A model generated the notes under the pieces. It made no database searches and was not told the origin of the DNA. It saw only the letters and a list, made by a program, of their open reading frames with translations. This document shows, piece by piece, positions 4,849 to 63,860 of a stretch of 64,000 nucleotides of DNA. The first letter of the stretch is position 1. Every line of letters begins with the position of its first letter. The stretch is from positions 107,839-171,838 of the forward strand of contig CAIYMO010000021.1 of assembly GCA_903927345.1 (NCBI GenBank), read 5' to 3'. A program made the position numbers and the translations under genes. This DNA comes from an uncultured Armatimonadota bacterium. GTDB taxonomy: Bacteria; Armatimonadota; Fimbriimonadia; Fimbriimonadales; Fimbriimonadaceae.

Positions 4849-5294
4849 AGGCTGATCGTACAGCCGATTGGCTTCGTTTCCTTCACTTTAGGCGCTTGCC
4901 CAGCGAGAGCCGATTGGATCGCGTTTCGAAGGTCCGGGCTAGTGGGCTTCCGCCACTTGTAATCGGAGCCGTAGGCATCGTCGATCCGCCCCCTGTAGAC
5001 CAGGCTTTGCCCCATGTAGACCACTGCCGTTGGTACAACCGTGGCTCCGGCTCGCTTCGCCTCAACTGCCTTGGGATCAAGGAGGAAGGGAGCCATGATC
5101 TTGAATTCCTTCTGATGCTGCTTTGCCGTCTTCGTTGTGATTCCGGGTTCTGAGTAGACCATTCGGAAGTTAGCTTTTGGGAAATCGCGCACGATCCGAT
5201 TGACTTCCGGTGAATATCGTCGGCAAATAGGACAGTCAGAAGTGATAAAGAAATCGACTCGAACTTGTGGCGTGAACAGGGGCAACATATACAA
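4845..5294 (-). CDS. Thioredoxin-fold protein with CPIC motif
   Basis: The 149-residue protein opens with a beta strand VRVDFFITSDCPICRRYSPE, carrying a CxxC pair at Cys21 and Cys24 in thioredoxin-fold context. The cis-proline loop follows in GATVVPTAVVYMG, and a late strand reads SLVYRGRIDD. It resembles redoxin/AhpC-TSA-type domain proteins. No signal peptide is evident, although the Met-rich beginning could hide an upstream or alternative start (Met1 or Met3). The tail ends in GCTISL, adding a third Cys near the C-terminus. Probable role: thiol-disulfide exchange. The partner is unknown. Confidence 0.7.
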   Translation of the reverse strand: MYMLPLFTPQVRVDFFITSDCPICRRYSPEVNRIVRDFPKANFRMVYSEPGITTKTAKQHQKEFKIMAPFLLDPKAVEAKRAGATVVPTAVVYMGQSLVYRGRIDDAYGSDYKWRKPTSPDLRNAIQSALAGQAPKVKETKPIGCTISL

Positions 5295-5298
5295 GTTG

Positions 5299-5321
5299 AA
5301 CGCCGGAGGTCATCCGGCGTT
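5299..5321 (-). terminator. Hairpin downstream of P5C dehydrogenase
   Basis: A perfect 9-bp inverted repeat (AACGCCGGA at 5299-5307, TCCGGCGTT at 5313-5321) with a 5-base loop lies just after the stop of the minus-strand dehydrogenase gene and before the start of the thioredoxin-like gene. The following bases lack a clean T-run, so termination may be weak or the hairpin may act in mRNA processing. Confidence 0.55.
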
Positions 5322-5329
5322 CTGCGAAT

Positions 5330-6964
5330 TCACTCGCTAGCGAGGAACGGGTAGCGATAGTCGGTCGGAGGAACGAAGGTCTCTTTGATCGTCCGCGCCG
5401 AGAGCCAGCGATAGAGATTTAGAGCAGAGCCAGCTTTATCGTTGGTTCCGCTTGCCCGGGCTCCGCCGAAGGGCTGCTGCCCGACAACCGCACCAGTTGG
5501 TTTGTCGTTGATGTAGAAGTTTCCTGCTGCATTGCGGAGGAGCTTGGTGGCAGTCTCGACAGCGTATCGATCTTGGGAGATGACGGCTCCCGTTAGGGCA
5601 TAAGGCGAGGTTTCATCAACCAGCTTGAGGGTCTCTTCCCATTTCTCTGCGTCATAGACGAAGAGGGTTAGGACTGGGCCAAAGATCTCTTCGCACATCG
5701 TTCGGTACATCGGATCGGTGACTTCAATGACCGTGGGTTCGATGAAGTAGCCCTTTGACTTATCGTAGCCACCGCCGACCAGGATGTTCTGGCCGTCTAC
5801 CTTTGCCTTATCGATGTAGGCGGCAATATTATCGAAGCTCTTCTCATCAATGACAGCATTGACGAAGTTGCCGAAGTCCTCGACCGACCCTTGCTTGAAG
5901 GATTTAGTCCCTTCGATCAAGAGTTCTTTGACGCGAGGAGCGATGTTCGAGGGGATGTAGCAGCGAGATGCCGCTGAGCACTTTTGCCCCTGATACTCAA
6001 AGGCACCGCGGAGAAGGGCGGTCGCGACCACGGCGGGGTCAGCGGACTTGTGAGCGACCACGAAGTCTTTTCCACCGGTCTCTCCGACGATTCGAGGGTA
6101 CGAGCGATAAATGTTGTTGGCAAGACCCTCGCCGATTTGCTTCCACATGGTGTTGAAGACTCCCGTAGAACCTGTGAAGTGAACTCCAGCGAAGTCGCGG
6201 TGGTTAAAACAAACCTTACCGATCGTTGGACCATCGACGTAGATCAGGTTGATAACGCCGTCGGGGAGTCCGGCTTCCTTCAGGACTCTCATGAACATTT
6301 GGGCGCTGTAAACCTGCGTGTTGGCTGGCTTCCAGACGACAACGTTGCCGCACATTGCCGCTGATGTCGGCAGGTTGCCGCCGATGGCGGTGAAGTTGAA
6401 CGGAGTGACTGCAAGAACGAAGCCCTCAAGCGGTCGGTACTCAAGGCGGTTGTGCATTCCTGGTCCGCTGATCGGCTGCTGGGCGTAGATTTCGCTGAGG
6501 AAGTGGACGTTGAATCGCAGGAAGTCAATGATTTCGCAAGCAGCGTCGATCTCTGCTTGGAAGGCGTTCTTGCTTTGCCCCAGCATCGTCGTGCCGTTCA
6601 TGTACGGACGGTACTTGGTCGCAATCAGGTCGGCTGCGCGGAGGAAGATATTTGCGCGACTTTCCCAGCTCATATTGCTCCAAGCCTCGCGTGCCGAGAG
6701 AGCGCATTCGATGGCCTTTTCGACATGGCTCGCGTCGCCAGCGTGGAAGACTCCGAGGGTGTGTGCCCGCTCGTGGGGAGGGTGCATGGTGACAGTCTTC
6801 CCGGTCCGAACCTCTTCGCCGCCGATGTACATCGGCACATCGACTTGCGTCGCTTTGAGCTCAGCCAGAACTTCCTTCAACCGCGCTCGCTCAGGTGTTC
6901 CCGGAGCGTAGCTCAGGACGGGTTCGTTGACGGGCAGAGCGTAGTGAAAGTCACCAAAGTTCAT
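5330..6964 (-). CDS. pruA: 1-pyrroline-5-carboxylate dehydrogenase
   Basis: The 544-residue aldehyde dehydrogenase superfamily protein oxidises glutamate semialdehyde (from P5C) to glutamate with NAD+, the second step of proline degradation. The N-terminal block YAPGTPERARLKEVL is characteristic of the long, eukaryote-like P5CDH branch. Active-site features are VTPFNFTAIGGNLP for cofactor binding, FTGSTGVF, the general-base Glu in GETGGKDFVV, and the nucleophile Cys in YQGQKCSAASR. A typical C-terminal segment is PFGGARASGTNDKAG. No proline dehydrogenase gene is next to it. Its product, glutamate, is also the end product of the hut pathway further along. Confidence 0.93.
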   Translation of the reverse strand: MNFGDFHYALPVNEPVLSYAPGTPERARLKEVLAELKATQVDVPMYIGGEEVRTGKTVTMHPPHERAHTLGVFHAGDASHVEKAIECALSAREAWSNMSWESRANIFLRAADLIATKYRPYMNGTTMLGQSKNAFQAEIDAACEIIDFLRFNVHFLSEIYAQQPISGPGMHNRLEYRPLEGFVLAVTPFNFTAIGGNLPTSAAMCGNVVVWKPANTQVYSAQMFMRVLKEAGLPDGVINLIYVDGPTIGKVCFNHRDFAGVHFTGSTGVFNTMWKQIGEGLANNIYRSYPRIVGETGGKDFVVAHKSADPAVVATALLRGAFEYQGQKCSAASRCYIPSNIAPRVKELLIEGTKSFKQGSVEDFGNFVNAVIDEKSFDNIAAYIDKAKVDGQNILVGGGYDKSKGYFIEPTVIEVTDPMYRTMCEEIFGPVLTLFVYDAEKWEETLKLVDETSPYALTGAVISQDRYAVETATKLLRNAAGNFYINDKPTGAVVGQQPFGGARASGTNDKAGSALNLYRWLSARTIKETFVPPTDYRYPFLASE

Positions 6965-7409: not shown

Positions 7410-8732
7410 TCAGACCTTGACGGAGAAGCCAGGGCGGAACTCGGGCTTGATAAGGCTATCAAACTCGTTGGTTCCTTTCACCTTCATGTTCTTGGAATCC
7501 CACTCAAGGCGAGGGCCGTCGGCCCAGATTGCCAGGTTGCCGAGCAGAACTGCTTCGGTAAGTGGTCCCGAGTAACCTGGGAAGTTGGAGACGGCTTGGG
7601 TTCCGCTCAAGCAGGCGTTGACCCACTCCTTCATGTGACCCGGAGATTGGACAACTTCGGTGTCTGGAATCGGGTTTCCGCTAACCAGGCTAAATCGAGT
7701 GTTGCTCTCATCAGCGCCAAAGATCGTGTCCTTTTCGCAGACGACAATAACGCCGTTTCCGCCGAACGTGAACAGCTCAGCGAGCTCCTGCGGTGGCTTT
7801 TGGCCGCCGTCGTACCAGTGGAGTTTGAATGGGTCCATCTTGCCCTTTGCGCCGTACTCGTACGTAACGTGCGCCCAGGTTGGGAAGGACTCCTTGTTGT
7901 GGCCGCTGGTCTTTGCCTGAACAGCGAGAGGAGCATCAAGTCCGAGAGCCATGTGTGGCATGTTGAAGATATGGCAGCCCATGTCTCCGAGAGCACCGGT
8001 GCCGAAGTCCCAGAAACCGCGCCATGAGAAATGGTGGTAGCCGTCTGCGTAGTCTCGCATTGGGCGAGGACCAACCCACATGTCCCAATCGAGTCCCTTT
8101 GGAACTGGCTTCGAGGCTGGACGAGGGATTCCTTGCTCCCAATAGACTTTGGCTCGGTCGGTCCAAAGATGAATTTCTTTGACCTTGCCCCAGGTTCCTT
8201 CTCGAAGGAGCTTGGCAACCTTTCGCATTTGGGTGCTCTGGGTTGAGTTGTTGCCCATCTGGGTGATCGCCTTCTTCTTCTTTGCCAGAATAGCGAGCTG
8301 ACGAGCTTCCCAAATTGTTCGGCAGAGTGGCTTTTCGGTGTAGGTGTGCATTCCAGCGTGAAGTGCCAGAACAGTTGCCGGAGCGTGGTGGTGATCCGGG
8401 GTGCTGATGATGACAGCATCCATCTTGCCGCGCATCGATGCGATCATCTCTCGATAGTCATCAAACGCTGCCGCCTTCATGTGCTCGCGCTGAGCTTTAA
8501 TTCGGTCTTCAAGGTCGACGTCGCATACGGCGACGACTTCTGCACCGGCAGCGACTGCTTGCTCGCGACCGCTCCAACCCTTACCGCCGCAACCAATAAT
8601 TCCGACGCGAAGCTTCTGCCCCGGCTCCATCGGCTTTTGAGCCTGTGCGGCTTCTGTTAGACCTAAACCAAGTCCTACGGTAGCGGCCACGCCACCCCGC
8701 AAAACATCTCTTCTTGAATAGTTGTTGCTCAT
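7410..8732 (-). CDS. Tat-exported Gfo/Idh/MocA family oxidoreductase
   Basis: The 440-residue protein begins with a twin-arginine signal ([11 protein letters not shown], then an Ala/Gly/Leu-rich stretch and AQAQ cleavage region), so it is probably exported folded with its cofactor. The Rossmann nucleotide site is [11 protein letters not shown] near residues 42-52, followed by [10 protein letters not shown]. The catalytic-region motif of the family is [13 protein letters not shown]. The C-terminal alpha/beta domain includes [15 protein letters not shown]. Members use NAD(P) on sugars or cyclitols; exported ones in Planctomycetes-like bacteria are tied to 3-keto-sugar chemistry. It lies 20 bases downstream of a DUF1080 gene on the same strand, which supports carbohydrate processing. 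The substrate is unknown. Confidence 0.9.
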
Positions 8733-54250: not shown

Positions 54251-57200
54251 ATGATCGCCATTTTGGAGTTGCGTCCTCTGCTTGCAGCAGGTCTGCTAGG
54301 TCTAAGCGCCTTGGCTTTTGGGGCCGACAAACAGACACAAAGAGTCAAGGTTTTCGTGCTCGCTGGACAATCCAATATGGAAGGACAGGCGGTTGTTGAC
54401 CTCACTGGCAAAGACTACAACGATGGGAAAGGAACTTTAGCCACTCTGATGTCGATCCCTGAAAAGCGACCCTTGTTCAAGCATCTCAAAAATTCCGACG
54501 GAACATGGAACGTGCGCAACGATGTCTTCGTGCGATATCAGAGGGAGAAACAGCCTCTGCTGACAGGACCGCTTGGCTTTGGATTTTCCGTTTACGGCGA
54601 CCAGCATCATTTTGGACCGGAGTATCAGCTGGGTCACGTGCTGGGTGATTATTTCAAGGAACCCGTTTTGCTGATAAAGACCGCATGGGGTGGCAAAAGC
54701 CTCTATGAAGACTTCCGTCCGCCATCTTCGGGTGGGAAAACCGGCAAATACTACAAATTGATGCTCAGCGATGTAAAAACCGCTTTGTCGAATATGGAAG
54801 CCGATTTTCCAGCATGCAAAGGACGCGGCTACGAACTTGCTGGGCTCGTTTGGTATCAAGGGTGGAACGACGGAGTTGATCCCAAGAGGGCTGTACCTGA
54901 GTATGAACAGAATCTGGTGAATTTGATTCGGGACGTCCGGAAAGAGTTCAACTCCCCAAAGCTTCCGGTGGTGGTTGGAGAGCTGACCGGCCCATGGGTA
55001 AAGGCTGAAGGGGCCTGGGATATGTTGCGTAAGGCTCAAGAGAACGCGGTTGAGCGTTATGAAGTTGACGGAAACGCGCTGTTCGTGCCAACACACGACT
55101 TTGTTCGAGAGGCCGAGGATTCCCCAAACCCAACCCATGGTCATCATGAATTTGGCAATGCCGAAACCATTTTCCTTGTTGGAGATGCGTTGGGCAAAGG
55201 AATGGTAAGCCTTTTAGAAAACCTCAAAGCACCCATGATCAAAGACTATGGTCTCAAACCATATGTTCGCCTGTCAAAGGACCTTCCACATTCGGAGAAT
55301 AAACCTTGGAAGCTTGTCTGTACGATGCCAACTAATTGCCACTTTCAGATGTGGATGGAATTGGAATCTGAGGCAGGTAAGCAAGTTCTTCTGAACTCCT
55401 CAAACCCGTTGGTGCAATATCTTACAAAGACGGAATCCTACACGACAATTGCGGGATCTCAAACTACGGAAGCAAAGAATTGGCTCAGCGGAGAAGGTGC
55501 GATCTACACTATTCCAGCTGGCGTTACTGTCAAAGCCGTGAAGTATCGAGAGACCGGATTTGACACTACGTTTGCAGGTTCATTTGAATGCAACGATAGG
55601 GATTTCAACGTGCTTTGGACAAAAGCCGCCCGAACCGCATATGTATGCATGCGGGACCACTTCTATGACTGCCCAGATCGGGAACGGGTCGGATTTTGGG
55701 GGGATGGAACCCCAGAACTGGATCAATGCTTTTACGTGTTTGATACAAAGGCTCACCGACTGGCGAAAGACCTTGTGCTCAGAAAGCTTCAGCCCAAGTT
55801 CTATCCGGGACAGCATCTAGAGTTTTTGGGTGAATACGGACTGTGGTTTTACTACATGCATACCGGGGACTTGGATTCGATTCGGGCGGTCTACGACCAA
55901 ACAAAAGTCTTTCTCTTCGAAACCTATAAATTTGGCAACAAGGGTACGTGGTTCGATTGGGGCAAGGAAAACAAAGACACGGCGGTGATCGAGACCTGTT
56001 TCTACTACAACTGTATGGAAACCCTGCTCAAAATGGCGAAGGTAACTGGACACAATGCGGATGTACCCCTAATCGAAAAGAAGCTGCAGGATATCAAGGC
56101 GACCTTTGATCAGAAGTTTTGGAAGGGAGGCTACTACATGTCTAGCCAGGTGAGTGAACCGGATGACCGCGCCAATGCGATGGCGGTCAATGCGGGATTA
56201 GCCGACAAAAAGAAGTGGGAAGCGATTTACACGAATGTCCTCGCCAAGAAAACCTATTCAAGTTGCTTCTTTGACAGATGGGTGTTCGAGGCCCTTTGCA
56301 AGATAGGAAGGCCAGAGGCCGCCTTGATGCGAATGGCGACTCGGTATAAAACCATGATTCCAGCCAGCATCACAACGCTTTGGGAGCATTATGATCGCTG
56401 GTGGGCTTCCCACATTGATGCCTTTGACGAAGGCTCTTCGTTGAACCACGGTTGGAATCCGCCCGCTTTGATTCTGTCAAAAACGATCACTGGAGTCGAG
56501 CCGACTCTTCCGGGTTGGACTGAGTTTCAAGTCTTACCTAAAGTAGCGTTTTTGAATTCAATCAAGATGACGGTTCCGACAGTCAAGGGCAAAGTTCGCG
56601 TTGAAATCAACAAGTCTGCTTCCCAGTTTTCTTTGCGGGTAACGGTTCCAATCGGAAGCTCAGCCGTGTTGGGTGTCCCAATTGGTTCTTTTACGAACTT
56701 GCAGTCCGTTGCTCTCCAGGGACGCGAAGTCTGGAGGTCTGGTCTCACGGGGGAAATTAGCGGAGCAACATATGTTGACGACAAGAACGGCTATGTGAAG
56801 TTCAAAGTTGAACCTGGTGTGTGGACATTGGTTGGTCGGGGTTTAGTGGAGATGGATTCGCCGAAGCCGTTGCCGGTCGCCAAGCGAAAGGAAATTGAAC
56901 TCGAAAAGCGAGGATGGAGCACGTCGGCTTCAGTCCCTGATTCGACATTCTTGTTCAGTGGTGACAATATTCCAATTGATGTTTCCGCGGAAAACGCGAC
57001 CGATGGGGATGTCTGGAATGGTTGGCGAGATATGACCAAAACACAGTATCCAGGGCAGTGGTTTCAAGTGGATATGAAGTCAAACCAGTCGTTCGATAAG
57101 ATTGTGCTGGATAACACGTGGGCCCTGTGGGATTCGCCGCAAATGTATGAGGTGAGAGTGTCCAGTGATGGGATCAAGTGGAGCGAAGTAATTGCCTCTG

Positions 57201-57337
57201 GACGCGGCGAACTGGGCATCACAAATATTACGTTTCCCATGCAATATGCCCGATTTATCCGCATCACCCAAACTGGTTCCAGTTCGCTGTACCATTGGTC
57301 AATCTATGAACTAAACGTCTGTCGGGGCAGGAAATAG
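54251..57337 (+). CDS. Fusion of SASA-type acetylesterase, GH78 rhamnosidase and F5/8C module
   Basis: The 1028-residue secreted protein (signal LLAAGLLGLSALAFGA) joins three domains. Residues about 30-325 form a sialate-O-acetylesterase-like SGNH domain (VFVLAGQSNMEGQ with the nucleophile Ser, TAWGGKSL, GLVWYQGWND, NPTHGHHEFGN). About 360-830 is a GH78-type beta-domain and (alpha/alpha)6 barrel with FYDCPDRERVGFWGDG near 473 and FDEGSSLNHGWN near 730. About 880-1028 is a discoidin/F5-8C domain (WFQVDMKSNQSFDKIVLDN, YARFIRITQTG). It would deacetylate and de-rhamnosylate the same plant glycan, such as acetylated pectin. No gene follows for 680 bases. Confidence 0.9.
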   Translation: MIAILELRPLLAAGLLGLSALAFGADKQTQRVKVFVLAGQSNMEGQAVVDLTGKDYNDGKGTLATLMSIPEKRPLFKHLKNSDGTWNVRNDVFVRYQREKQPLLTGPLGFGFSVYGDQHHFGPEYQLGHVLGDYFKEPVLLIKTAWGGKSLYEDFRPPSSGGKTGKYYKLMLSDVKTALSNMEADFPACKGRGYELAGLVWYQGWNDGVDPKRAVPEYEQNLVNLIRDVRKEFNSPKLPVVVGELTGPWVKAEGAWDMLRKAQENAVERYEVDGNALFVPTHDFVREAEDSPNPTHGHHEFGNAETIFLVGDALGKGMVSLLENLKAPMIKDYGLKPYVRLSKDLPHSENKPWKLVCTMPTNCHFQMWMELESEAGKQVLLNSSNPLVQYLTKTESYTTIAGSQTTEAKNWLSGEGAIYTIPAGVTVKAVKYRETGFDTTFAGSFECNDRDFNVLWTKAARTAYVCMRDHFYDCPDRERVGFWGDGTPELDQCFYVFDTKAHRLAKDLVLRKLQPKFYPGQHLEFLGEYGLWFYYMHTGDLDSIRAVYDQTKVFLFETYKFGNKGTWFDWGKENKDTAVIETCFYYNCMETLLKMAKVTGHNADVPLIEKKLQDIKATFDQKFWKGGYYMSSQVSEPDDRANAMAVNAGLADKKKWEAIYTNVLAKKTYSSCFFDRWVFEALCKIGRPEAALMRMATRYKTMIPASITTLWEHYDRWWASHIDAFDEGSSLNHGWNPPALILSKTITGVEPTLPGWTEFQVLPKVAFLNSIKMTVPTVKGKVRVEINKSASQFSLRVTVPIGSSAVLGVPIGSFTNLQSVALQGREVWRSGLTGEISGATYVDDKNGYVKFKVEPGVWTLVGRGLVEMDSPKPLPVAKRKEIELEKRGWSTSASVPDSTFLFSGDNIPIDVSAENATDGDVWNGWRDMTKTQYPGQWFQVDMKSNQSFDKIVLDNTWALWDSPQMYEVRVSSDGIKWSEVIASGRGELGITNITFPMQYARFIRITQTGSSSLYHWSIYELNVCRGRK

Positions 57338-57627
57338 CTTTTCTCAATCTCATCTCTGTGCGAGAGAGGACCTGACCCACCTCGGAAAAGTTGGGAGGAT
57401 TTACGGCTGGAGTCGGGGTTCGCCGTCTTTTTCGCTTTTGATCAAGCCCAGTCCTTCGTAGAAAGCCGAAAATCAATCTCGGCAGAATAATCCCTATGAA
57501 CCCTTTTCCCAAATTCGCTTCCAAATGACGCAAACAAAAAAAGGAACTTTGGTGACTCTTGGAAACTCGAGAGTTCGAAGATTGAATAGTCGGAGGAGGT
57601 TACTGGACGCGATTCGAAAAACAAGAG

Positions 57628-57657
57628 TTGCGAATCCCCTCCCCTGATCACAAAATT
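57628..57657 (+). repeat. Left copy of 30-base flank repeat A/B
   Basis: The 30 bases here and those at 63831-63860 agree at 24 positions by my count, sharing TGCGAATC, TCCCCTGAT and AAA cores. The right copy touches the 3' end of tRNA-Ala. The pair brackets the SAM-riboswitch operon in the same orientation, as attachment-site remnants would. Confidence 0.5.
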
Positions 57658-57756: not shown

Positions 57757-57781
57757 TTTGGCACTGCGAAAAACGCGTCTA
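57757..57781 (+). repeat. Left copy of short flank repeat C/D
   Basis: TTTGGCACT, GCGAAAAA, ACG and TCTA occur here in order and again at 63658-63690, where a TTTGGCATCC-like stretch is inserted after TTTGGCACT. This copy ends in the -35 region of the operon promoter. The two copies lie on either side of the operon. Confidence 0.4.
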
Positions 57782-57799
57782 GGATTCTGGGAAGTTGTG

Positions 57800-57805
57800 T
57801 ATAAT
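57800..57805 (+). promoter_or_regulatory. Predicted -10 box for the SAM-riboswitch transcript
   Basis: A perfect TATAAT lies eight bases upstream of the 5' strand of the riboswitch P1 helix, so transcription would start at about 57811-57812, exactly where the aptamer begins. No good -35 is seen at 17 bases. Confidence 0.65.
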
Positions 57806-57810
57806 CGAAA

Positions 57811-57906
57811 TTGCATCAAGAGCGGCCCCGATGGGCCCGGCAACCGAGTGTGAAGAACGCCACGGTGCCAGGAGCAACCAAGCTCGATGCGCAGGACAGA
57901 CCTGAA
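57811..57906 (+). ncRNA. SAM-I/SAM-IV-clan riboswitch aptamer
   Basis: The conserved SAM core is present in order: ATCAAGAG (57815-57822), a GC-rich P2 hairpin (GGCCC CGAT GGGCC, 57824-57837), CCGGCAACC (57837-57845), a P3 arm closed by GTG/CAC, GGTGCCA (57864-57870) and a P4 hairpin GAGC/GCTC (57872-57884). P1 pairs GCATC (57813-57817) with GATGC (57886-57890). A further small hairpin CAGG/CCTG (57892-57904) follows P1, as in SAM-IV. P2 is too short for the kink-turn of classical SAM-I. High SAM is expected to favour the terminator just downstream. Class choice between SAM-IV and SAM-I/IV is uncertain. Confidence 0.8.
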
Positions 57907-57932
57907 AAAGGAGTTCTTCGCTGGAAGTGACG

Positions 57933-57971
57933 GGGCCGTTGACGAGAGATCGTCAACGGCCCTTTCCCTTT
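57933..57971 (+). terminator. Riboswitch-linked intrinsic terminator
   Basis: A perfect 12-bp stem (GGGCCGTTGACG at 57933-57944, CGTCAACGGCCC at 57951-57962) with a 6-base loop is followed by TTTCCCTTT. It sits between the aptamer and the first gene, the right place for an expression platform. The T-run is interrupted by CCC. Confidence 0.8.
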
Positions 57972-58017
57972 CAAACGGGGCCGATTGACGCGCGAAATTC
58001 GCATCAAAAGGCTAAAC

Positions 58018-58380
58018 ATGGAAACAACAGAGCGCGCTGCTAGGGCGCAAGTTAACTCGATCATCTGCAATCTGGACTTCGAAAAGCTCCAAGCTTGCAC
58101 AACCGCAACTGGATTGGCTACTGCACCGATTCTCGCTGAGGCCGCCATAGATGGCATGTGGCTCTTTCTCGGGGTGCAAGTAGACGCCCTGAGTTTGAAG
58201 CCGCAACCCGTTCGGCTACTCGAAGTCCCTGGCGATGGTGCACCGATCCACGTGCTCCTTGCCGACCAAGGGCGACGGGTGCTCGTCACCTCAAACAATG
58301 GCCGTGAAGAAGTCCTCAACAGGCTCGCCCAGCAGCAAATTGTAGTTGAGTGGAACACGGAGGTGGGACATGGCTGCTAA
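58018..58380 (+). CDS. Small protein of unknown function, first gene of the SAM-riboswitch operon
   Basis: The 120-residue protein starts at ATG 58018 (AAAGG seven bases upstream) rather than the TTG at 57985. It is a soluble alpha/beta protein: an N-terminal helix (TERAARAQVNSIICNLDFEKLQAC), a segment TGLATAPILAEAAIDGMWLFLGVQVDAL, strand-rich PVRLLEVPGDGAPIHVLLADQGRRVLVTSNNG and a short helix EEVLNRLAQQQIVVEW. I recognise no family. The stop overlaps the AAA ATPase start by eleven bases, so translation is coupled. It could be an adaptor or regulator of the ATPase; this is a guess. Confidence 0.8.
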   Translation: METTERAARAQVNSIICNLDFEKLQACTTATGLATAPILAEAAIDGMWLFLGVQVDALSLKPQPVRLLEVPGDGAPIHVLLADQGRRVLVTSNNGREEVLNRLAQQQIVVEWNTEVGHGC

Positions 58381-59764
58381 GCGTGGTTACCTCACTCGCC
58401 TTGGTGCGTTTGGCTTCGACGCCGTCGAGCCCGTCGTTCTCGCCGCCTTGGTAACCGAGGACCCGTTACTAGTGATCGGCAACAGCGGCACTGGCAAGAC
58501 CTTTCTGCTCAACTCCATCTCGGAGGCTCTTGGGCTGGAACACCGTCACTATAACGCATCAATGGTGAGTTTCGATGACCTCGTTGGTTTCCCTTATCCG
58601 GACGACGAGAAGTCGTGCGTCAAGTTCTTGGAGACTCCCGCGACGGTTTGGGGAGCCGAGAGCTTGCTCGTGGACGAGATTTCGCGGTGCCGCCCCGAAC
58701 ATCAGAACCGCCTCTTCAGCCTCATCCACGAAAGACGGGTGCAAGGCATTGCTCTCGAGCGGCTTCGCTTCCGCTGGGCTGCCATGAATCCTTGTTCGAT
58801 GGATCAAGGAGGTGATTACTCAGGTTCTGAGCCCTTGGACCGTGCCCTGGCCGATCGCTTCGGGCTCATCGTCAAAGTGGGCGACTGGCGGGAACTCTCC
58901 AAGGCGAACAAGAGAAAAGTGGCAGATCCATCGGGAGAGGGCGCTTTGTCCGACGATAAAGGCAAACTAGCCTTGGCACTTGGGGAGTGGCGGGCGAAGT
59001 ACAACGAACTGCTACCTAGCTGTCCGGCGGTGATCATCGACTATGCCTGCGCGGCGGCCACGTCACTCGGAGAAGCGCGCATCCGACTTTCGCCACGTCG
59101 CGTCAGGATGCTGTCGCGCTCCCTGCTCGCAGTCACCGTGGTGTCAGGTGCGGGGCCCGACCCCGCGCTGTTTCGCATGATACTCGAGTGCTCCATACCC
59201 CATTCGGCGTGGGGCGAGGAACCGCGAAAGGAATCGATCGCCGCCGCCCACCGCGCAGCATGGGACTCCGCGGTTGCGACTGGGGACCGCAAGTGGATAC
59301 ACGAGTTTCATTTGGAACTTTCCCTCGCGGAGAAGGCGCGTATGCTCTTTCGCGGATGTCCAGGCCCAGATGCGGGCAGTTCCGCGGTCGCCCAGTTGCT
59401 GGCGAGCGACCGTCCAGAACGAGTAGCTGCGTTCGCGATGTCGCTCTATCCGGCTGCTGCGGCTGGCCTGGTCTCCAGCCTCGGCGCGGAAGGCGCGGCA
59501 GACCTCGGGCGAGTCGCCCAAGAGGTCTTGTCCGTGGACGGGGAAATCGCCTGGCAGGAACGCGTCAGCGAGCAAGGTACGACCCACCCGGAGATAGAAC
59601 GTAGCTCGTCCACTTTGAAAGCCCTGTCGGGGGCAAGGAAGGAGCGGGCTACTCAGCTCTTCAACCATCTAATCGTGGCCAAAATCGCTCCGGAGAAGTT
59701 CGACGAGATCGAGGGCGAACTCGAGGCCTGTGTGCGTGCCGTCGCCGAGGAGGTGCGGCGATGA
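58370..59764 (+). CDS. MoxR-type AAA+ ATPase
   Basis: The 464-residue protein is a dynein-related/MoxR AAA+ ATPase. Walker A is GNSGTGKT (residues 37-44), Walker B LLVDE (99-103), the sensor-1 region FRWAAMNP (about 134-141), and an arginine-finger-type segment DRALADRFG about 20 residues later. After the AAA core, about residues 190-464 form a mostly helical Ala/Glu/Arg-rich C-terminal region (AARLGEARIRLSPRRVRMLSR-like lid, then a long tail) with no family I can name. MoxR proteins act with VWA-domain partners to remodel or activate targets; such a partner is two genes downstream. The start ATG 58370 is inside the previous gene's end. Confidence 0.9.
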   Translation: MAAKRGYLTRLGAFGFDAVEPVVLAALVTEDPLLVIGNSGTGKTFLLNSISEALGLEHRHYNASMVSFDDLVGFPYPDDEKSCVKFLETPATVWGAESLLVDEISRCRPEHQNRLFSLIHERRVQGIALERLRFRWAAMNPCSMDQGGDYSGSEPLDRALADRFGLIVKVGDWRELSKANKRKVADPSGEGALSDDKGKLALALGEWRAKYNELLPSCPAVIIDYACAAATSLGEARIRLSPRRVRMLSRSLLAVTVVSGAGPDPALFRMILECSIPHSAWGEEPRKESIAAAHRAAWDSAVATGDRKWIHEFHLELSLAEKARMLFRGCPGPDAGSSAVAQLLASDRPERVAAFAMSLYPAAAAGLVSSLGAEGAADLGRVAQEVLSVDGEIAWQERVSEQGTTHPEIERSSSTLKALSGARKERATQLFNHLIVAKIAPEKFDEIEGELEACVRAVAEEVRR

Positions 59765-60237
59765 TGACCCAGGCCATGTCGATCCGCCACAGATGGGAGA
59801 GGCGGACTCCGCTTGCGAACATGGGCGGTCCGAGGAGCCGGGCGAGGAAGGAGCAGGTGAAGGCCAGCCTTCTTGGCAAAGTCGTAGGAAAGGTCAAACT
59901 CCCACACCTGCGCACCGTCGGATTCGCAATCAGCGAAGGGCGCGACCCCGTGACGGCCGCATACGACGCTCTTGCGAGACTCGGCTACCGATCGCCGGAA
60001 GACTTGCGCAACGTCTTCGATCTGCCCGCTGGTCCCCGTCTGGTCGCACCGAGCCTCAGGATTCCGGAGTTATCGTTGGAGTCGCTTACCGACGAGGCTC
60101 TGTTGGCCGAAGCCCTTGTCCTCGGACTCTGCACGAAAACCATGTACGATCCGACGCGCCCGGTGGTGTGGACGAGGGCAAGCCTTTCGCGGAGGCTGGA
60201 GATGTTCCAGACGGGAGGGTTCTATGCGCTGGACTGA
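59761..60237 (+). CDS. Unknown protein between the AAA ATPase and the VWA metallopeptidase
   Basis: The 158-residue protein starts at ATG 59761, overlapping the ATPase stop by four bases. The first 50 residues are very basic (SIRHRWERR, RSRARKEQVK, KVVGKVKLPHLR), then a helical part DPVTAAYDALARLGYRSPEDLRNVFDL and a Leu/Glu-rich helix LSLESLTDEALLAEALVLGL follow. There is no signal or membrane segment. The basic head could bind nucleic acid or an acidic partner. Family not recognised. Its end overlaps the next gene by 14 bases. Confidence 0.75.
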   Translation: MMTQAMSIRHRWERRTPLANMGGPRSRARKEQVKASLLGKVVGKVKLPHLRTVGFAISEGRDPVTAAYDALARLGYRSPEDLRNVFDLPAGPRLVAPSLRIPELSLESLTDEALLAEALVLGLCTKTMYDPTRPVVWTRASLSRRLEMFQTGGFYALD

Positions 60238-61615
60238 CGAACGCTTCGACAACGTTCTCCTCGAGTTGATTGAGGAGAATCCGCTTGCAGTGAGGCCCGT
60301 GCTAAAGATTCTCCGAAGAAGGTTCACGGAGGAAGTGTCCACGCTGGCGGTGACTCTCGCCGATCCGCCGGAACTGCTCATCAATCCGAACTTTGTGCAG
60401 GAGCATTGCAAGACCGAGGAACACCTGAAGGCGGTGCTCTTCCACGAGTTCCTTCACGTGATCCTCGGCCACACGATGCGATTCAAAGAGATGAGCGCGG
60501 TGCAGAACGTCGCCCTCGACGCCGCGATCAACGCGATCATCTTCCGGCAATGTGGTCCGGAATACGCGTCCCTGTTCGCGGAATACTACGCGGATCAAAC
60601 CGGTGTCGCGAAGCTTTTGCGCCCGAAGAGCAATGCTGAGAGAGTCGATATAAAGAAGCGACGCGACGACTACGCCAAAGAATGCGAGGAGTCCGGCGAT
60701 TTGGAGTCTCTGGCCTTCGGTTTCGATATTCGTAAACAACTTGAGCGTTCTTGGGACGCGCTCTACGAGGGGAAGCTCGTCTCCGACGACGTGCTCGAAC
60801 TCGCCGAGACTCTGGCCGCTCAAGGCGAAGCGGTCCTGACTAAGGGAAAGGTTCTGATCGGCAACCACGACGGCGTGGGTGTTCCCGTGAGCGGAGAACT
60901 CGCAGACGCAGTGGAAGAGGCACTGAGGCAGATGAACGGAAGCGGCATCTGGCGGGCCCCGAACGCGCAAGGCGTCGGTGCATACGAGTACCGACCCGTT
61001 TTCACCGCCGCCGAGGAGAAGTTGGAACGATGGAAGGCTCAGACCCTAAAAGCCCTCCGCAAAGCGCTCATCCCCGATCGTAGAAGTACCCTCCTCGAGC
61101 ACCGTGAGAGCTTTCATCGTCTTCCCGTTTTGAGTCCCAAGGATAGGCGGGCCTTCCTTAGGGCCAGCTGGAGTCCCTTCATTCCGGAAGCCGACAACGC
61201 GTCTTCAGCGGAGTTTCCTCTGGGGTATGCCAACGTCTACCTCGACGTCAGCGGATCGATGAACGCGGAGATGCCGCTCGTCGTCTCCCTACTCAATCAG
61301 GTTCGCAAGGTCATCCGAATGCCGTTCTGGGCCTTCTCGACGACGGTCTCTCCCGCTCGCATCGAATCGGGCAGGCTGGAGACAGCCTCGACCGGAGGTA
61401 CAAGCATGTCATGCGTTCTCGCCCACCTGGCGAAGACGAAACCCAGCTGCGCAGTCGTTTTCACGGACGGTTACATTGAGGCGGTCGACAGGCGGATGCT
61501 GAACGATTGTTCCGGAACTCGCCTCACCGCTATCGTCACTCGCGATGGTGATCCCTCCGCCCTTCAGAAGGCTGGGATTTCCTACATTCAACTGGAGAAA
61601 TTGCCAAATGGTTAG
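60224..61615 (+). CDS. DUF2201-type predicted metallopeptidase with VWA domain
   Basis: The 463-residue protein starts at ATG 60224, preceded by GGGAGG at a good distance; open sequence upstream is shadow of the previous gene. The N-terminal domain has a zincin motif HEFLH (74-78) in LFHEFLHVILGH, and AALDAAINAIIF-like helices follow, matching the DUF2201 N-terminal putative metallopeptidase. The C-terminal VWA-like domain has a MIDAS DVSGSM near 341, TGGTSMSCVLAHL and VVFTDGYIEAV. Proteins of this kind pair with MoxR ATPases, as here. The expected role is ATPase-gated proteolysis or remodelling; the target is unknown. Confidence 0.88.
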   Translation: MRWTDERFDNVLLELIEENPLAVRPVLKILRRRFTEEVSTLAVTLADPPELLINPNFVQEHCKTEEHLKAVLFHEFLHVILGHTMRFKEMSAVQNVALDAAINAIIFRQCGPEYASLFAEYYADQTGVAKLLRPKSNAERVDIKKRRDDYAKECEESGDLESLAFGFDIRKQLERSWDALYEGKLVSDDVLELAETLAAQGEAVLTKGKVLIGNHDGVGVPVSGELADAVEEALRQMNGSGIWRAPNAQGVGAYEYRPVFTAAEEKLERWKAQTLKALRKALIPDRRSTLLEHRESFHRLPVLSPKDRRAFLRASWSPFIPEADNASSAEFPLGYANVYLDVSGSMNAEMPLVVSLLNQVRKVIRMPFWAFSTTVSPARIESGRLETASTGGTSMSCVLAHLAKTKPSCAVVFTDGYIEAVDRRMLNDCSGTRLTAIVTRDGDPSALQKAGISYIQLEKLPNG

Positions 61616-62618
61616 ATACTCAGAAGTCGTTCTTCCCGGTCATCCGGACAAAGTCTGTGACGCGGTCGCCGAGGCCATCGTCAAAGCCGCGCTCGCCGTC
61701 GATCCCGATGCGTATGCCCAGGTGGAAGTCTCCGTTTGGGACTATGAGATGTGGCTCACGGGCGGCGTGGTCACGTCCAAACGCGTGCCGAACCTCTTCA
61801 AGGACATCGCAAAGGACACCGTCATCGATCTCGGATACAAATCGCCCAACGCCTACGATGCGAGAAAACTCGAGGTGCGCTGCTCTTTGTGCGTCGAGAT
61901 CGACGACCCGCGGCAGTACACCCACCACGTGAACGACCAGTGCATCGCGATTGGTTGGGCGGGCTACGACGAGAAAGTGGACTACCTCCCACCGGAACAC
62001 TTCCTCGCCCGGAGTTTCGGCGCAGCCTTGTTCCGCTCGTTCTCAAAGGGCCCTCTCAAGGGGCAGGGTCCCGATGGAAAGCTTGTAGTCCGTCTGCGGG
62101 AGGAATGTGGTGGGTGGGTCTTAGAGCACGTACTTGCAACCGTTCAACAATTGGACACGACGTCGTTCCTAGATTTCGTGCCGCTTGTTACGATGGTTCT
62201 TGAGGCCCAATACCACTCGATTCAAGCTCGGGACTCGAGATGGGTCAGACCGTGGAAGGATGTTGAGGTTCTCATCAATCCAAACGGCCCGCTGATCAAC
62301 GGAGGTCCACTTTCAGACAACGGGCAAACCGGACGGAAACTTGTGATGGACTACTATGGACCGAGAGTCCCGATCGGCGGTGGCGCACTGTACGGCAAGG
62401 ACCCAAGGCATATCGACCGTTTCGCCAGCGCCACATGCAGGGAGGCTGCGATCCACGCAGTAAAGACCGGTGCCAAGGAGTGTCAGGTGACCGTCTGCTA
62501 CGCTCCAAACCAGTCTCAGCCTGTAGACGTGAGGTACGAAATGGTAGGACGCGGAAGAAAGCTCCCAGACCAAAGATGGAACCAATCAACACCAATAGAT
62601 CGTGTGACTATGGCGTGA
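61608..62618 (+). CDS. Divergent S-adenosylmethionine synthetase-like protein
   Basis: The 336-residue protein follows the MetK fold: PGHPDK with the catalytic His at residue 12, NDQ with Asp110, GPDGK with Lys158, INPNGPLINGGPLSDNGQTGRK with Asp237, Arg243 and Lys244, and GGGALYGKDPRHID with Lys264 and Asp270. Two usual residues differ: the Glu of the GGEIT motif is Val (GGVVT, about 52-56), and the Lys of KDPxKxD is His268. It is about 45-50 residues shorter than E. coli MetK at the C-terminus. ATG 61608 overlaps the upstream stop by eight bases. It may make SAM or an altered product, or bind SAM as a sensor. It is the last gene of the riboswitch operon. Confidence 0.88.
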   Translation: MVRYSEVVLPGHPDKVCDAVAEAIVKAALAVDPDAYAQVEVSVWDYEMWLTGGVVTSKRVPNLFKDIAKDTVIDLGYKSPNAYDARKLEVRCSLCVEIDDPRQYTHHVNDQCIAIGWAGYDEKVDYLPPEHFLARSFGAALFRSFSKGPLKGQGPDGKLVVRLREECGGWVLEHVLATVQQLDTTSFLDFVPLVTMVLEAQYHSIQARDSRWVRPWKDVEVLINPNGPLINGGPLSDNGQTGRKLVMDYYGPRVPIGGGALYGKDPRHIDRFASATCREAAIHAVKTGAKECQVTVCYAPNQSQPVDVRYEMVGRGRKLPDQRWNQSTPIDRVTMA

Positions 62619-62743: not shown

Positions 62744-63526
62744 TCACGACAAACCTCGGTATTGGCGCTCCGCTAGATGCAAATCGATGCGTCGCCCCAG
62801 CTTCTTCCACTCTCCTCTGGTCACCGAAGCAACCTCAACCCTTAATGCAATCAACTCAGTTATGGTGAATTCCAAGAGGATATTTGAGTTGGTCAGCGCG
62901 GCCCACTCTTCTGGATATGCAGAAACCGCAACATCCCTTTCCTTACAAACTATTATTCGCAAGCGTAGAGGAAGGGGATACTGATCAAGTTCGGCCAGTG
63001 TCTCCTGCCAGGCATTTCGAAGTTGGTTTCCGCGTTCAATATGTGCTCGACTCTTTTGATGGCGCGCTGCTTCAGCAGCGACTTTTCTGTCTTGATCTGC
63101 TCGTAAATTTTGCTCCTTCGCCAACTCCCTTGCGGCTCTCCTATCGTGCATCTCGGAGATGCTGGCGGCACGCCCCCGGTTAGTCCCGAAGGGAATGTAA
63201 GGATTGTCAGAGTTCTCCATCAGCCAATTCGCGAGACCTGCCGTATCCGATACTCTGCCTTCGAGGGCTCTAAACAGCCAGATAACCGCGGAAACTGAAC
63301 CACCACTCCAACGAAATTGCATCTCACACTTGGCCATTCCCTTTGTGAGAGCAACGAGGTCTTCGTCGGACAGCCCGAGCGTAACCTCATCCCAATCACT
63401 CCAGTGGAGGGTATTGATTGACCTAAATGGTGCCAGGTCTGAATATCGCTCGCGCCATTCGCTTTCACCCAAGTCAGAGTGACTTGCCTCGATGATCCGA
63501 TTCAAAACTTGACTCGTGGGCCTCAC
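62744..63526 (-). CDS. Hypothetical protein with central coiled coil
   Basis: The 260-residue protein is soluble. The N-terminal part (about 1-105) has a compact acidic/Trp-rich region (LHWSDWDEVTLGLSDEDLVAL, FRWSGGSVSAVIWLFRALEG). The middle (about 120-170) is a charged Arg/Ala/Glu helix, probably a coiled coil (RRAARELAKEQNLRADQDRK). The C-terminal 90 residues hold strands LRLRIIVCKERDVAVSAYP and a helical end. I do not recognise the family. It is transcribed against the riboswitch operon, 126 bases from metK, and is the last gene before the tRNA, inside the bracketed block. Confidence 0.65.
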   Translation of the reverse strand: MRPTSQVLNRIIEASHSDLGESEWRERYSDLAPFRSINTLHWSDWDEVTLGLSDEDLVALTKGMAKCEMQFRWSGGSVSAVIWLFRALEGRVSDTAGLANWLMENSDNPYIPFGTNRGRAASISEMHDRRAARELAKEQNLRADQDRKVAAEAARHQKSRAHIERGNQLRNAWQETLAELDQYPLPLRLRIIVCKERDVAVSAYPEEWAALTNSNILLEFTITELIALRVEVASVTRGEWKKLGRRIDLHLAERQYRGLS

Positions 63527-63859
63527 TACTTTTCCCCCACTGTCTTCAATCCGATTCTGATAAGTCCATCCTTGGAAGTCGGCTGTTCAGTTGCGCTCTT
63601 CAAAGGTTCATGCAGGCTTCCATTCTATCAAAGCCCAAGAATCACCGCTGCCTTCAGTTTGGCACTTTGGCATCCGCGAAAAAACGTCTATGCATGAAGA
63701 TTGTGTGCCCTCGCGAATGCCCAAAAAGCTTATCCACGGTGTGCACATTAACAAGTCTTGTGGATTTTCGTTGAGTGTGTTTCCAGCATTTGTTGCCAGA
63801 GATTCCTAGACACAATTCTGAAAGAAGGAGCTGCGAATCGCATCCCCTGATTATAAAGT
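63527..63859. other. Non-coding stretch between hypothetical gene and tRNA-Ala
   Basis: No credible gene is visible here. It contains the right-hand copies of the two short flank sequences (63658-63690 and 63831-63860), the second ending at the tRNA 3' end. No integrase or transposase remnant is readable. Confidence 0.45.
63658..63690 (+). repeat. Right copy of short flank repeat C/D
   Basis: It shares TTTGGCACT, GCGAAAAA, ACG and TCTA in order with 57757-57781, with a second TTTGGCAT unit inserted. The order of the two repeat pairs along the plus strand is reversed between the left and right sides. Confidence 0.4.
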
Positions 63860-63860
63860 T
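63831..63860 (+). repeat. Right copy of 30-base flank repeat A/B
   Basis: It matches 57628-57657 at 24 of 30 positions and directly abuts the CCA end of the minus-strand tRNA-Ala, the usual side for integrative elements to insert. Confidence 0.5.

Follow-up and report, generated by a model that had tools for sequence, protein, structure and literature searches.

A four-gene cassette encoding a MoxR-type ATPase, a VWA-domain protein and a MetK-like protein is preceded by predicted SAM riboswitches in Armatimonadota and many other phyla

The window analyzed here is a stretch of 64,000 nucleotides (nt) of DNA from an uncultured Armatimonadota bacterium (contig CAIYMO010000021.1, positions 107,839 to 171,838). 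Its forward strand carries a predicted S-adenosylmethionine (SAM) riboswitch followed by five open reading frames (ORFs), which are joined by consecutive overlaps from 58018 to 62618, as was stated in a preliminary description of this DNA. Gene A (58018..58380) encodes a protein of 120 amino acids (aa), gene B (58370..59764) a MoxR-type AAA+ ATPase of 464 aa, gene C (59761..60237) a small basic protein of 158 aa without a known family or fold match, gene D (60224..61615) a protein of 463 aa with HExxH metallopeptidase-like and VWA domains, identified by invariant motifs and the VWA fold, and gene E (61608..62618) a MetK-like protein of 336 aa with altered residues on the methionine side. Scans of the Pfam and TIGR type assigned no accepted family to genes A and C. 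The conserved unit consists of genes B-E, since gene A has no relative in the loci fetched for comparison and was found in the window alone (BLAST against locus ORFs). Thus, of the five-gene module described before, the linkage of MoxR, the basic protein, the HExxH-VWA protein and the MetK-like protein stands, while the 120-aa gene falls outside the cassette.

The leader of the operon contains a SAM-I/IV aptamer at 57808..57920 on the forward strand (Rfam RF01725, 55.6 bits against the gathering score of 41.1). No other RF01725 match occurs in the whole genome at E ≤ 0.01, and this, together with the score, rules out a chance aptamer; searches of the same genome with RF00521 and RF00162 gave no match. 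An intrinsic-terminator-like hairpin of 14 pairs lies on the same strand at 57932..57963 and is followed by TTTCCCTTTC; its fold with short flanks has an energy of -30.5 kcal/mol and a z-score of -6.5, the z-score of the entire leader being -5.8. This is the type of expression platform expected 3' of an RF01725 aptamer, the switching itself being a prediction. Both the aptamer of the SAM-I/IV clan and the terminator had been proposed earlier, and both are borne out. The promoter proposed with them is plausible as a candidate but is not pinned: the possible -10 hexamer TATAAT is present at 57800..57805 of the forward strand, directly ahead of the aptamer, while the promoter scan preferred TTGGCA-16-TAGGAT at 57758-57785 (score 9/12).

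A search of genome contigs with a 33-row profile of protein D yielded 189 relatives, and 80 loci were kept. Their ORFs were taken from a greedy longest-ORF script, with over-extended moxR starts re-set by tblastn. The order B-C-D-E recurs across these loci, as seen when the window proteins are compared by BLAST with the locus ORFs. When the ORFs are clustered, D is found in 71 loci, B in 68, MetK-type proteins (canonical ones included) in 54 and C in 42, the next family occurring in 7. By tblastn, E adjoins D downstream in 60 of the 80 loci. In six loci (L064, L066, L070, L075, L080 and L086) a canonical-type MetK is encoded upstream of moxR and none follows D.

The distribution of the cassette is wide yet patchy. 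The carriers belong to at least 15 phyla according to the labels of their metagenome-assembled genomes (MAGs), to which the usual binning caution applies; a cassette restricted to the lineage of the window is ruled out by the relatives that the D profile found in many phyla. One of the carriers, Cnuella takakiae (L054), is a cultured bacterium. Among 291 Armatimonadota genomes, D and E were found in the same five and are adjacent in all of them, and among 121 relatives B at E ≤ 1e-60 was found in these five only. All five carriers have an RF01725 match 5' of moxR, the one in G064 (= G152) being just under the cut-off (40.4 against 41.1). The search for co-occurrence called for by the preliminary description therefore found the riboswitch and the MoxR/VWA/MetK-like set conserved together over many phyla, and neither the leader nor MetK was consistently absent from the homologues.

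Searches of 36 whole cassette genomes with three Rfam models (E ≤ 0.01 for RF01725 and RF00162, E ≤ 0.1 for RF00521) gave 25 matches to RF01725, 21 to RF00521 and 15 to RF00162, some of them under the gathering scores. RF01725 and RF00162 share one clan, and RF00521 (SAM-II) lies outside it. Of the 61 matches, 29, in 23 of the 36 genomes, are situated 5' of moxR on the same strand and within 6.5 kb (17 of RF01725, 7 of RF00521 and 5 of RF00162), and 23 of these 29 are at most 500 nt from moxR. The tested 6.5-kb stretches make up about 0.16% of the approximately 149 Mb searched, a size obtained as the sum of rounded genome sizes. The other 32 matches are located elsewhere, partly ahead of canonical metK (G169).

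Two covariance models, R2 (SAM-I/IV, 21 training aptamers) and R3 (SAM-II, 11 training aptamers), trained almost entirely on the same loci, were run on 75 loci with a total length of 1.05 Mb. The 73 matches at E ≤ 0.01 (38 of R2 and 35 of R3) all have the orientation of the operon, and 72 are placed 5' of moxR or reach into its estimated start by no more than 19 nt. The training sets account for 29 of the 73 (18 of R2 and 11 of R3), and the other 44 are not training sequences. With bit cut-offs of 25 and 20, respectively, an R2 or R3 match is present within 500 nt of moxR in 42 of the 65 loci that have at least 250 nt before this gene, and a further 9 loci have one farther upstream, ahead of metK or other genes. 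Four more loci are assigned to SAM-I by Rfam, L037 with 78.3 bits and L022, L024 and L030 with 31-37 bits, which is under the gathering score. Together, Rfam and the two models recognize a SAM aptamer in the leaders of 55 of the 65 moxR starts.

Some leaders contain two or three aptamers (L067, L074, L035, L027, L061, L057, L034, L093), and in others SAM-I/IV is combined with SAM-II (L045, L046, L031, L040). On the tree of 75 D proteins, well-supported branches require the class label to change at least 10 times for SAM-I/IV, 9 times for SAM-II and 3 times for SAM-I; these counts may be inflated, loci having no upstream sequence being labelled as none, mixed leaders being given a separate label, and L016 being labelled by a match downstream of E. 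As judged from the sequences, SAM-I, SAM-I/IV and SAM-II are each recruited repeatedly ahead of the cassette. Tandems of SAM-II with SAM-I/IV (7 and 2 cases), as well as doublets of SAM-I and of SAM-II, were counted in an earlier survey, in the available part of which MoxR is absent from the text (PMC9481103); the tandems described here lie before the moxR cassette.

Several further observations concern these leaders and the genes next to them. The SAM-II match of L016 (3336-3417) is situated downstream of E in a contig that has no sequence upstream of moxR. In L044, a SAM-II-like stretch seen by eye ahead of moxR (about 8000-8160), reported neither by Rfam nor by R3, could be a variant aptamer. 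RF01725 matches are present in relatives without the cassette, such as G015 and G092; they precede ORFs in L142 (1734-1830) and L143 (3007-3121). In L029, from a Rhodoferax MAG, a histone-deacetylase-family protein (4883-5830) is encoded between the SAM-II match and moxR. In L038 (3958-7577) and L074 (7026-7901), proteins with a CPxC...CxH pattern, recognized by eye, stand between the SAM riboswitch and moxR, and a phosphorylase-superfamily gene (PNP_UDP_1) is found near the cassette in the same two loci. In Verrucomicrobiota, a small protein of 75-152 aa, integrase-arm-binding-like by eye (DUF6538 under the cut-off), is encoded directly upstream of moxR or metK (L050, L056, L058, L060, L066, L075, L086).

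Protein B matches Pfam AAA_5 with 33.7 bits and AAA_3 with 28.9 bits, both above the cut-offs, and by sequence its only PDB matches are midasin chains. In the conserved gene order, the VWA protein next to this MoxR-type ATPase carries a MIDAS motif. The preliminary description had classed D as a DUF2201-type HExxH and VWA protein, and its motifs are indeed invariant in the alignment of 33 rows (HEFLH at residues 74-78 and DVSGSM, the MIDAS motif, at 341-346). The family label falls just short, DUF2201_N (PF13203) scoring 22.8 against 23.2 and PF09967 scoring 19 against 26.4, both under gathering; several relatives of D do carry DUF2201 labels in Pfam (PF13203/PF09967). By sequence, D has no PDB relative. 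In the Foldseek search with the VWA part of its AlphaFold model (pLDDT 79), the first row is 9qhe_G from the NorQD complex (E 1.5e-3), a chain which we take to be NorD. Protein C, for which an alignment of 53 rows and an AlphaFold model with pLDDT 86 are available, has no PDB match at E ≤ 0.001 by structure and none by sequence.

The closest known systems are NorQD and CbbQO, in which, as in the cassette, a MoxR AAA+ ATPase and a VWA partner are co-encoded near an enzyme, the genes of both adjoining those of their clients, and in which MoxR hexamers together with the VWA partner remodel or metallate the client enzyme. Unlike them, the cassette has a HExxH domain on D, the additional protein C, a MetK-type neighbour and SAM-riboswitch leaders. 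More generally, MoxR-like ATPases with VWA partners remodel their targets and insert metals (PMC13036017).

Protein E was described earlier as a divergent MetK, and the profiles agree with this: the N and C domains of S-AdoMet synthetase are above the Pfam cut-offs, the central domain is under its own (17.1 against 29), and the TIGR01034 metK profile gives 134.3 bits, the curated cut-off of 309.4 not being reached. A different contig of the same genome carries a canonical metK (528 bits). Searched against plasmids by tblastn, E gave only matches of 30-32% identity among the best 15 of 166, named metK where annotated. Residues were compared in 53 E sequences, the one of the window included, and in 15 other MetK-type sequences; we use a numbering that we take to be that of E. 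coli MetK, matched to the human numbering by motif. Asp118 and Asp163 are invariant in all 53 E sequences and Lys17 is present in 52, while Ile302, which we assume to have a functional role in MetK, is replaced by Pro in 53 of 53. The gating loop is shortened in E. Twelve catalytic residues are listed, in human numbering, in PMC7271947; nine of them (His14, Asp16, Glu42, Lys165, Asp238, Arg244, Lys245, Lys265 and Asp271) are retained in 53 of 53 E sequences.

Our tentative reading is that of a SAM-switched cassette whose MoxR-VWA pair likely serves as an ATP-driven activase for the cassette's own MetK-type enzyme. Leaders of the SAM-I and SAM-II classes repress when SAM is bound, and expression at low SAM is what is predicted for the cassette, in agreement with the known direction of these classes and with the terminator. 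A fall in SAM would free the leader and lead to expression of B-C-D-E; proteins B, C and D would then gather on the MetK-type enzyme translated from this mRNA and would open, clear or load its active site, a counterpart to the action of CbbQO on Rubisco and of NorQD on NO reductase. The outcome would be an adenosyl or methyl supply sustained during shortage. SAM riboswitches are usually taken to govern genes for methionine and SAM; before this one cassette, the structurally unrelated SAM-II is used beside SAM-I and SAM-I/IV. Since three classes have been placed repeatedly before the same genes in many phyla, selection appears to link this machine to the SAM level. The cassette thus offers a route to a new client of MoxR-VWA pairs and to a MetK subfamily with a rebuilt methionine pocket.

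Several observations weigh against the activase reading. The MetK-type enzyme is suggested as the client by adjacency alone, and 14 of the 80 loci are without any MetK-type gene, several of them because the contig ends; some distant relatives (L089, L090, L092 and L094) have no MetK-type gene in the available sequence. Ten of the 65 leaders have no recognized SAM aptamer (L020, L025, L042, L044, L048, L051, L052, L072, L081 and L090), that of L052 giving a weak match only. The match of D to the NorQD complex is weaker than E 0.001, and the rows listed by VIA-align, whose alignment of D covers mainly the VWA part, are other VWA domains. Moreover, three of the catalytic residues are lost: Glu55 is kept in 1 of the 53 E sequences (L016), Gln98 in 8 and Lys269 in none, its position being occupied by His in 52 and by Asn in 1. 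Window E itself has all three replaced. The 15 other MetK-type sequences retain Glu55 in 12 cases, Gln98 in 11 and Lys269 in 15; they include the distant cassette members L084, L085 and L093, which have changes of their own, with Glu55 changed and Lys269 kept. To judge by these replacements, E may be unable to form SAM, and the cassette may have a net effect other than SAM supply. The earlier suggestion of a MetK simply restoring SAM is thus left unproven, since the three residues are lost in nearly all E sequences.

The lost residues point to the alternative that E has a new acceptor, the chemistry of ATP cleavage being kept while something other than free methionine is adenosylated, with B-C-D supplying or presenting the acceptor. 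We consider this possible, though doubtful. In the human enzyme, the methionine main chain is held by the counterparts of two lost sites, Glu70 and Gln113 (PMC7271947), and it is these contacts, together with Lys269, that disappear from a protein with nine of the twelve catalytic residues intact. As reported in PMC6850014, a patient variant of Lys289 lowers SAM formation and leaves phosphatase activity unaffected, and the Gln113 to Ala variant still forms SAM at 75%, so that loss of Gln113 alone would not end the activity. The family-specific replacement of Ile302 and the shorter gating loop are consistent with a new acceptor, and so is the finding that 31 of the 33 cassette genomes searched have one or more MetK matches in addition to the best-scoring one. 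On the other hand, the third main-chain contact (Asp238, human Asp258) is retained in E, the three distant members change Glu55 yet keep Lys269, the close member L016 keeps Glu55, and the acceptor and product are postulated. Finally, replacement of E by a canonical-type MetK in six loci suggests that ordinary SAM chemistry can serve the cassette.

A more specific version, which we regard as unlikely, is that the cassette makes a new adenosyl product from a thioether other than free methionine, being switched on by SAM riboswitches when SAM is scarce. The thioether could be the side chain of a methionine residue, the MoxR-VWA-HExxH machine unfolding and presenting the protein or peptide that contains it. 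The canonical MetK of the six loci speaks for a SAM-related outcome of the cassette, and the rebuilt pocket for methionine speaks for a new acceptor.

Ordinary SAM homeostasis, with E as a backup SAM synthetase for low SAM and B-C-D as generic chaperones for E or for enzymes of the methionine cycle, appears unlikely. It agrees with the genes usually governed by SAM riboswitches and with the occurrence of canonical metK within the same leader-led cluster in L019, L022, L038, L041 and the Opitutae loci. Still, an enzyme that served simply as a backup should have kept its methionine pocket, which is altered family-wide in E.

An anti-phage or other conflict module, in which a phage SAM hydrolase or a drain by methylation derepresses the operon and the metallopeptidase-VWA-MoxR set acts as effector, was offered as an example by the preliminary description and seems improbable to us. 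The patchy spread (5 of 291 genomes in the phylum) would fit it. So would the related MoxR-vWA pairs of ternary conflict systems, described in PMC7159879, which share with the cassette the MoxR and vWA core and sometimes have peptidase domains. The VMAP, iSTAND, FtsH and beta-propeller components of those systems were not recognized by Pfam among the five genes of the window, a comparison made without the profiles of that paper; the words riboswitch and MetK are absent from its available text. The bpMoxR profile gives 13.4 bits, under the cut-off of 27.

Scans with PADLOC (2023) give weak partial AAA matches only for the operon proteins, the best being mad8 with 22.2 bits at residues 28-70 of B, the MoxR itself. 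Of 368 ORFs of at least 180 aa within 6 kb of the cassettes, 130 were drawn randomly under a length limit and 129 were scanned; this set omits the upstream MetK of L022, and some of its proteins lie inside leader-led clusters. Among the first 25 of 196 PADLOC families, and without a control set or controlled enrichment test, no family exceeds 2 of the 129 proteins: WYL, a Cas3 model and a NERD+UvrD model match 2 each, and GajB, PD-T4-6, mad6 and a type II methyltransferase match 1 each. The commonest Pfam family in the flanks is DUF3293 (3 of 129, among the first 25 of 91 families). These scattered neighbour families, the weak PADLOC matches and the only five relatives in viral contigs, all weak, argue against the conflict module. 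In its favour, L089 and L090 encode a large protein and a helicase-like one downstream, and a member of the same cluster precedes the cassette in L044. All in all, a conflict role is possible but unsupported.

In these two loci (L089, 2155-10446, and L090, 9656-17189), the genes after the distant relatives of D encode proteins of about 1,200 aa, which belong to shared clusters, and then the helicase-like proteins, whose start is PLD-like by eye; the cluster of the latter is the one with the member in L044.

Phage origin of the cassette is ruled out, D having no match to phage records by tblastn, viral contigs giving only the five weak loci, and the one phage MetK compared being canonical at the tested residues. 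At the three sites this MetK, which is that of phiNJ3, has the canonical Glu, Gln and Lys, all of which are replaced in E of the window; its gene lies near one for an adenine methyltransferase. E matches the phage MetK family phrog_1569 with 141.9 bits over residues 1-317. D matches phrog_1314 with 81.5 bits and B matches phrog_1297 with 39.7 bits. In a jumbo-phage pair, as in the cassette, a MoxR gene adjoins one whose product joins a metallopeptidase domain at the N-terminus to a vWA domain; a role in virion assembly is proposed for it, and no MetK is named in the available part of the source (PMC7824862).

In our literature searches, no description was found of this cassette or of a SAM riboswitch together with MoxR. 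The parts are of known kinds; we regard their combination as a new form of MoxR-VWA client module that carries a new subfamily of MetK-like proteins.

The cassette of the window resembles a small island adjoining a tRNA gene, because the repeat flanking it ends at the 3' end of tRNA-Ala and the G+C content rises inside. The repeat is direct and imperfect, its two 62-nt copies on the forward strand (57596..57657 and 63799..63860, the right one ending at the tRNA) being 74% identical; a genome search with the left copy found nothing but itself at E ≤ 0.01. Most of the cassette has a G+C content of 0.58-0.64, compared with 0.48-0.51 in the near flanks and 0.52-0.57 further left. Between the cassette and tRNA-Ala, the reverse strand carries an ORF of 260 aa (62744-63526) with no accepted Pfam family. 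To the left, the forward strand encodes a protein of 1028 aa (54251-57337) that combines sialate-acetylesterase-like, alpha-L-rhamnosidase and F5/8 type C domains.

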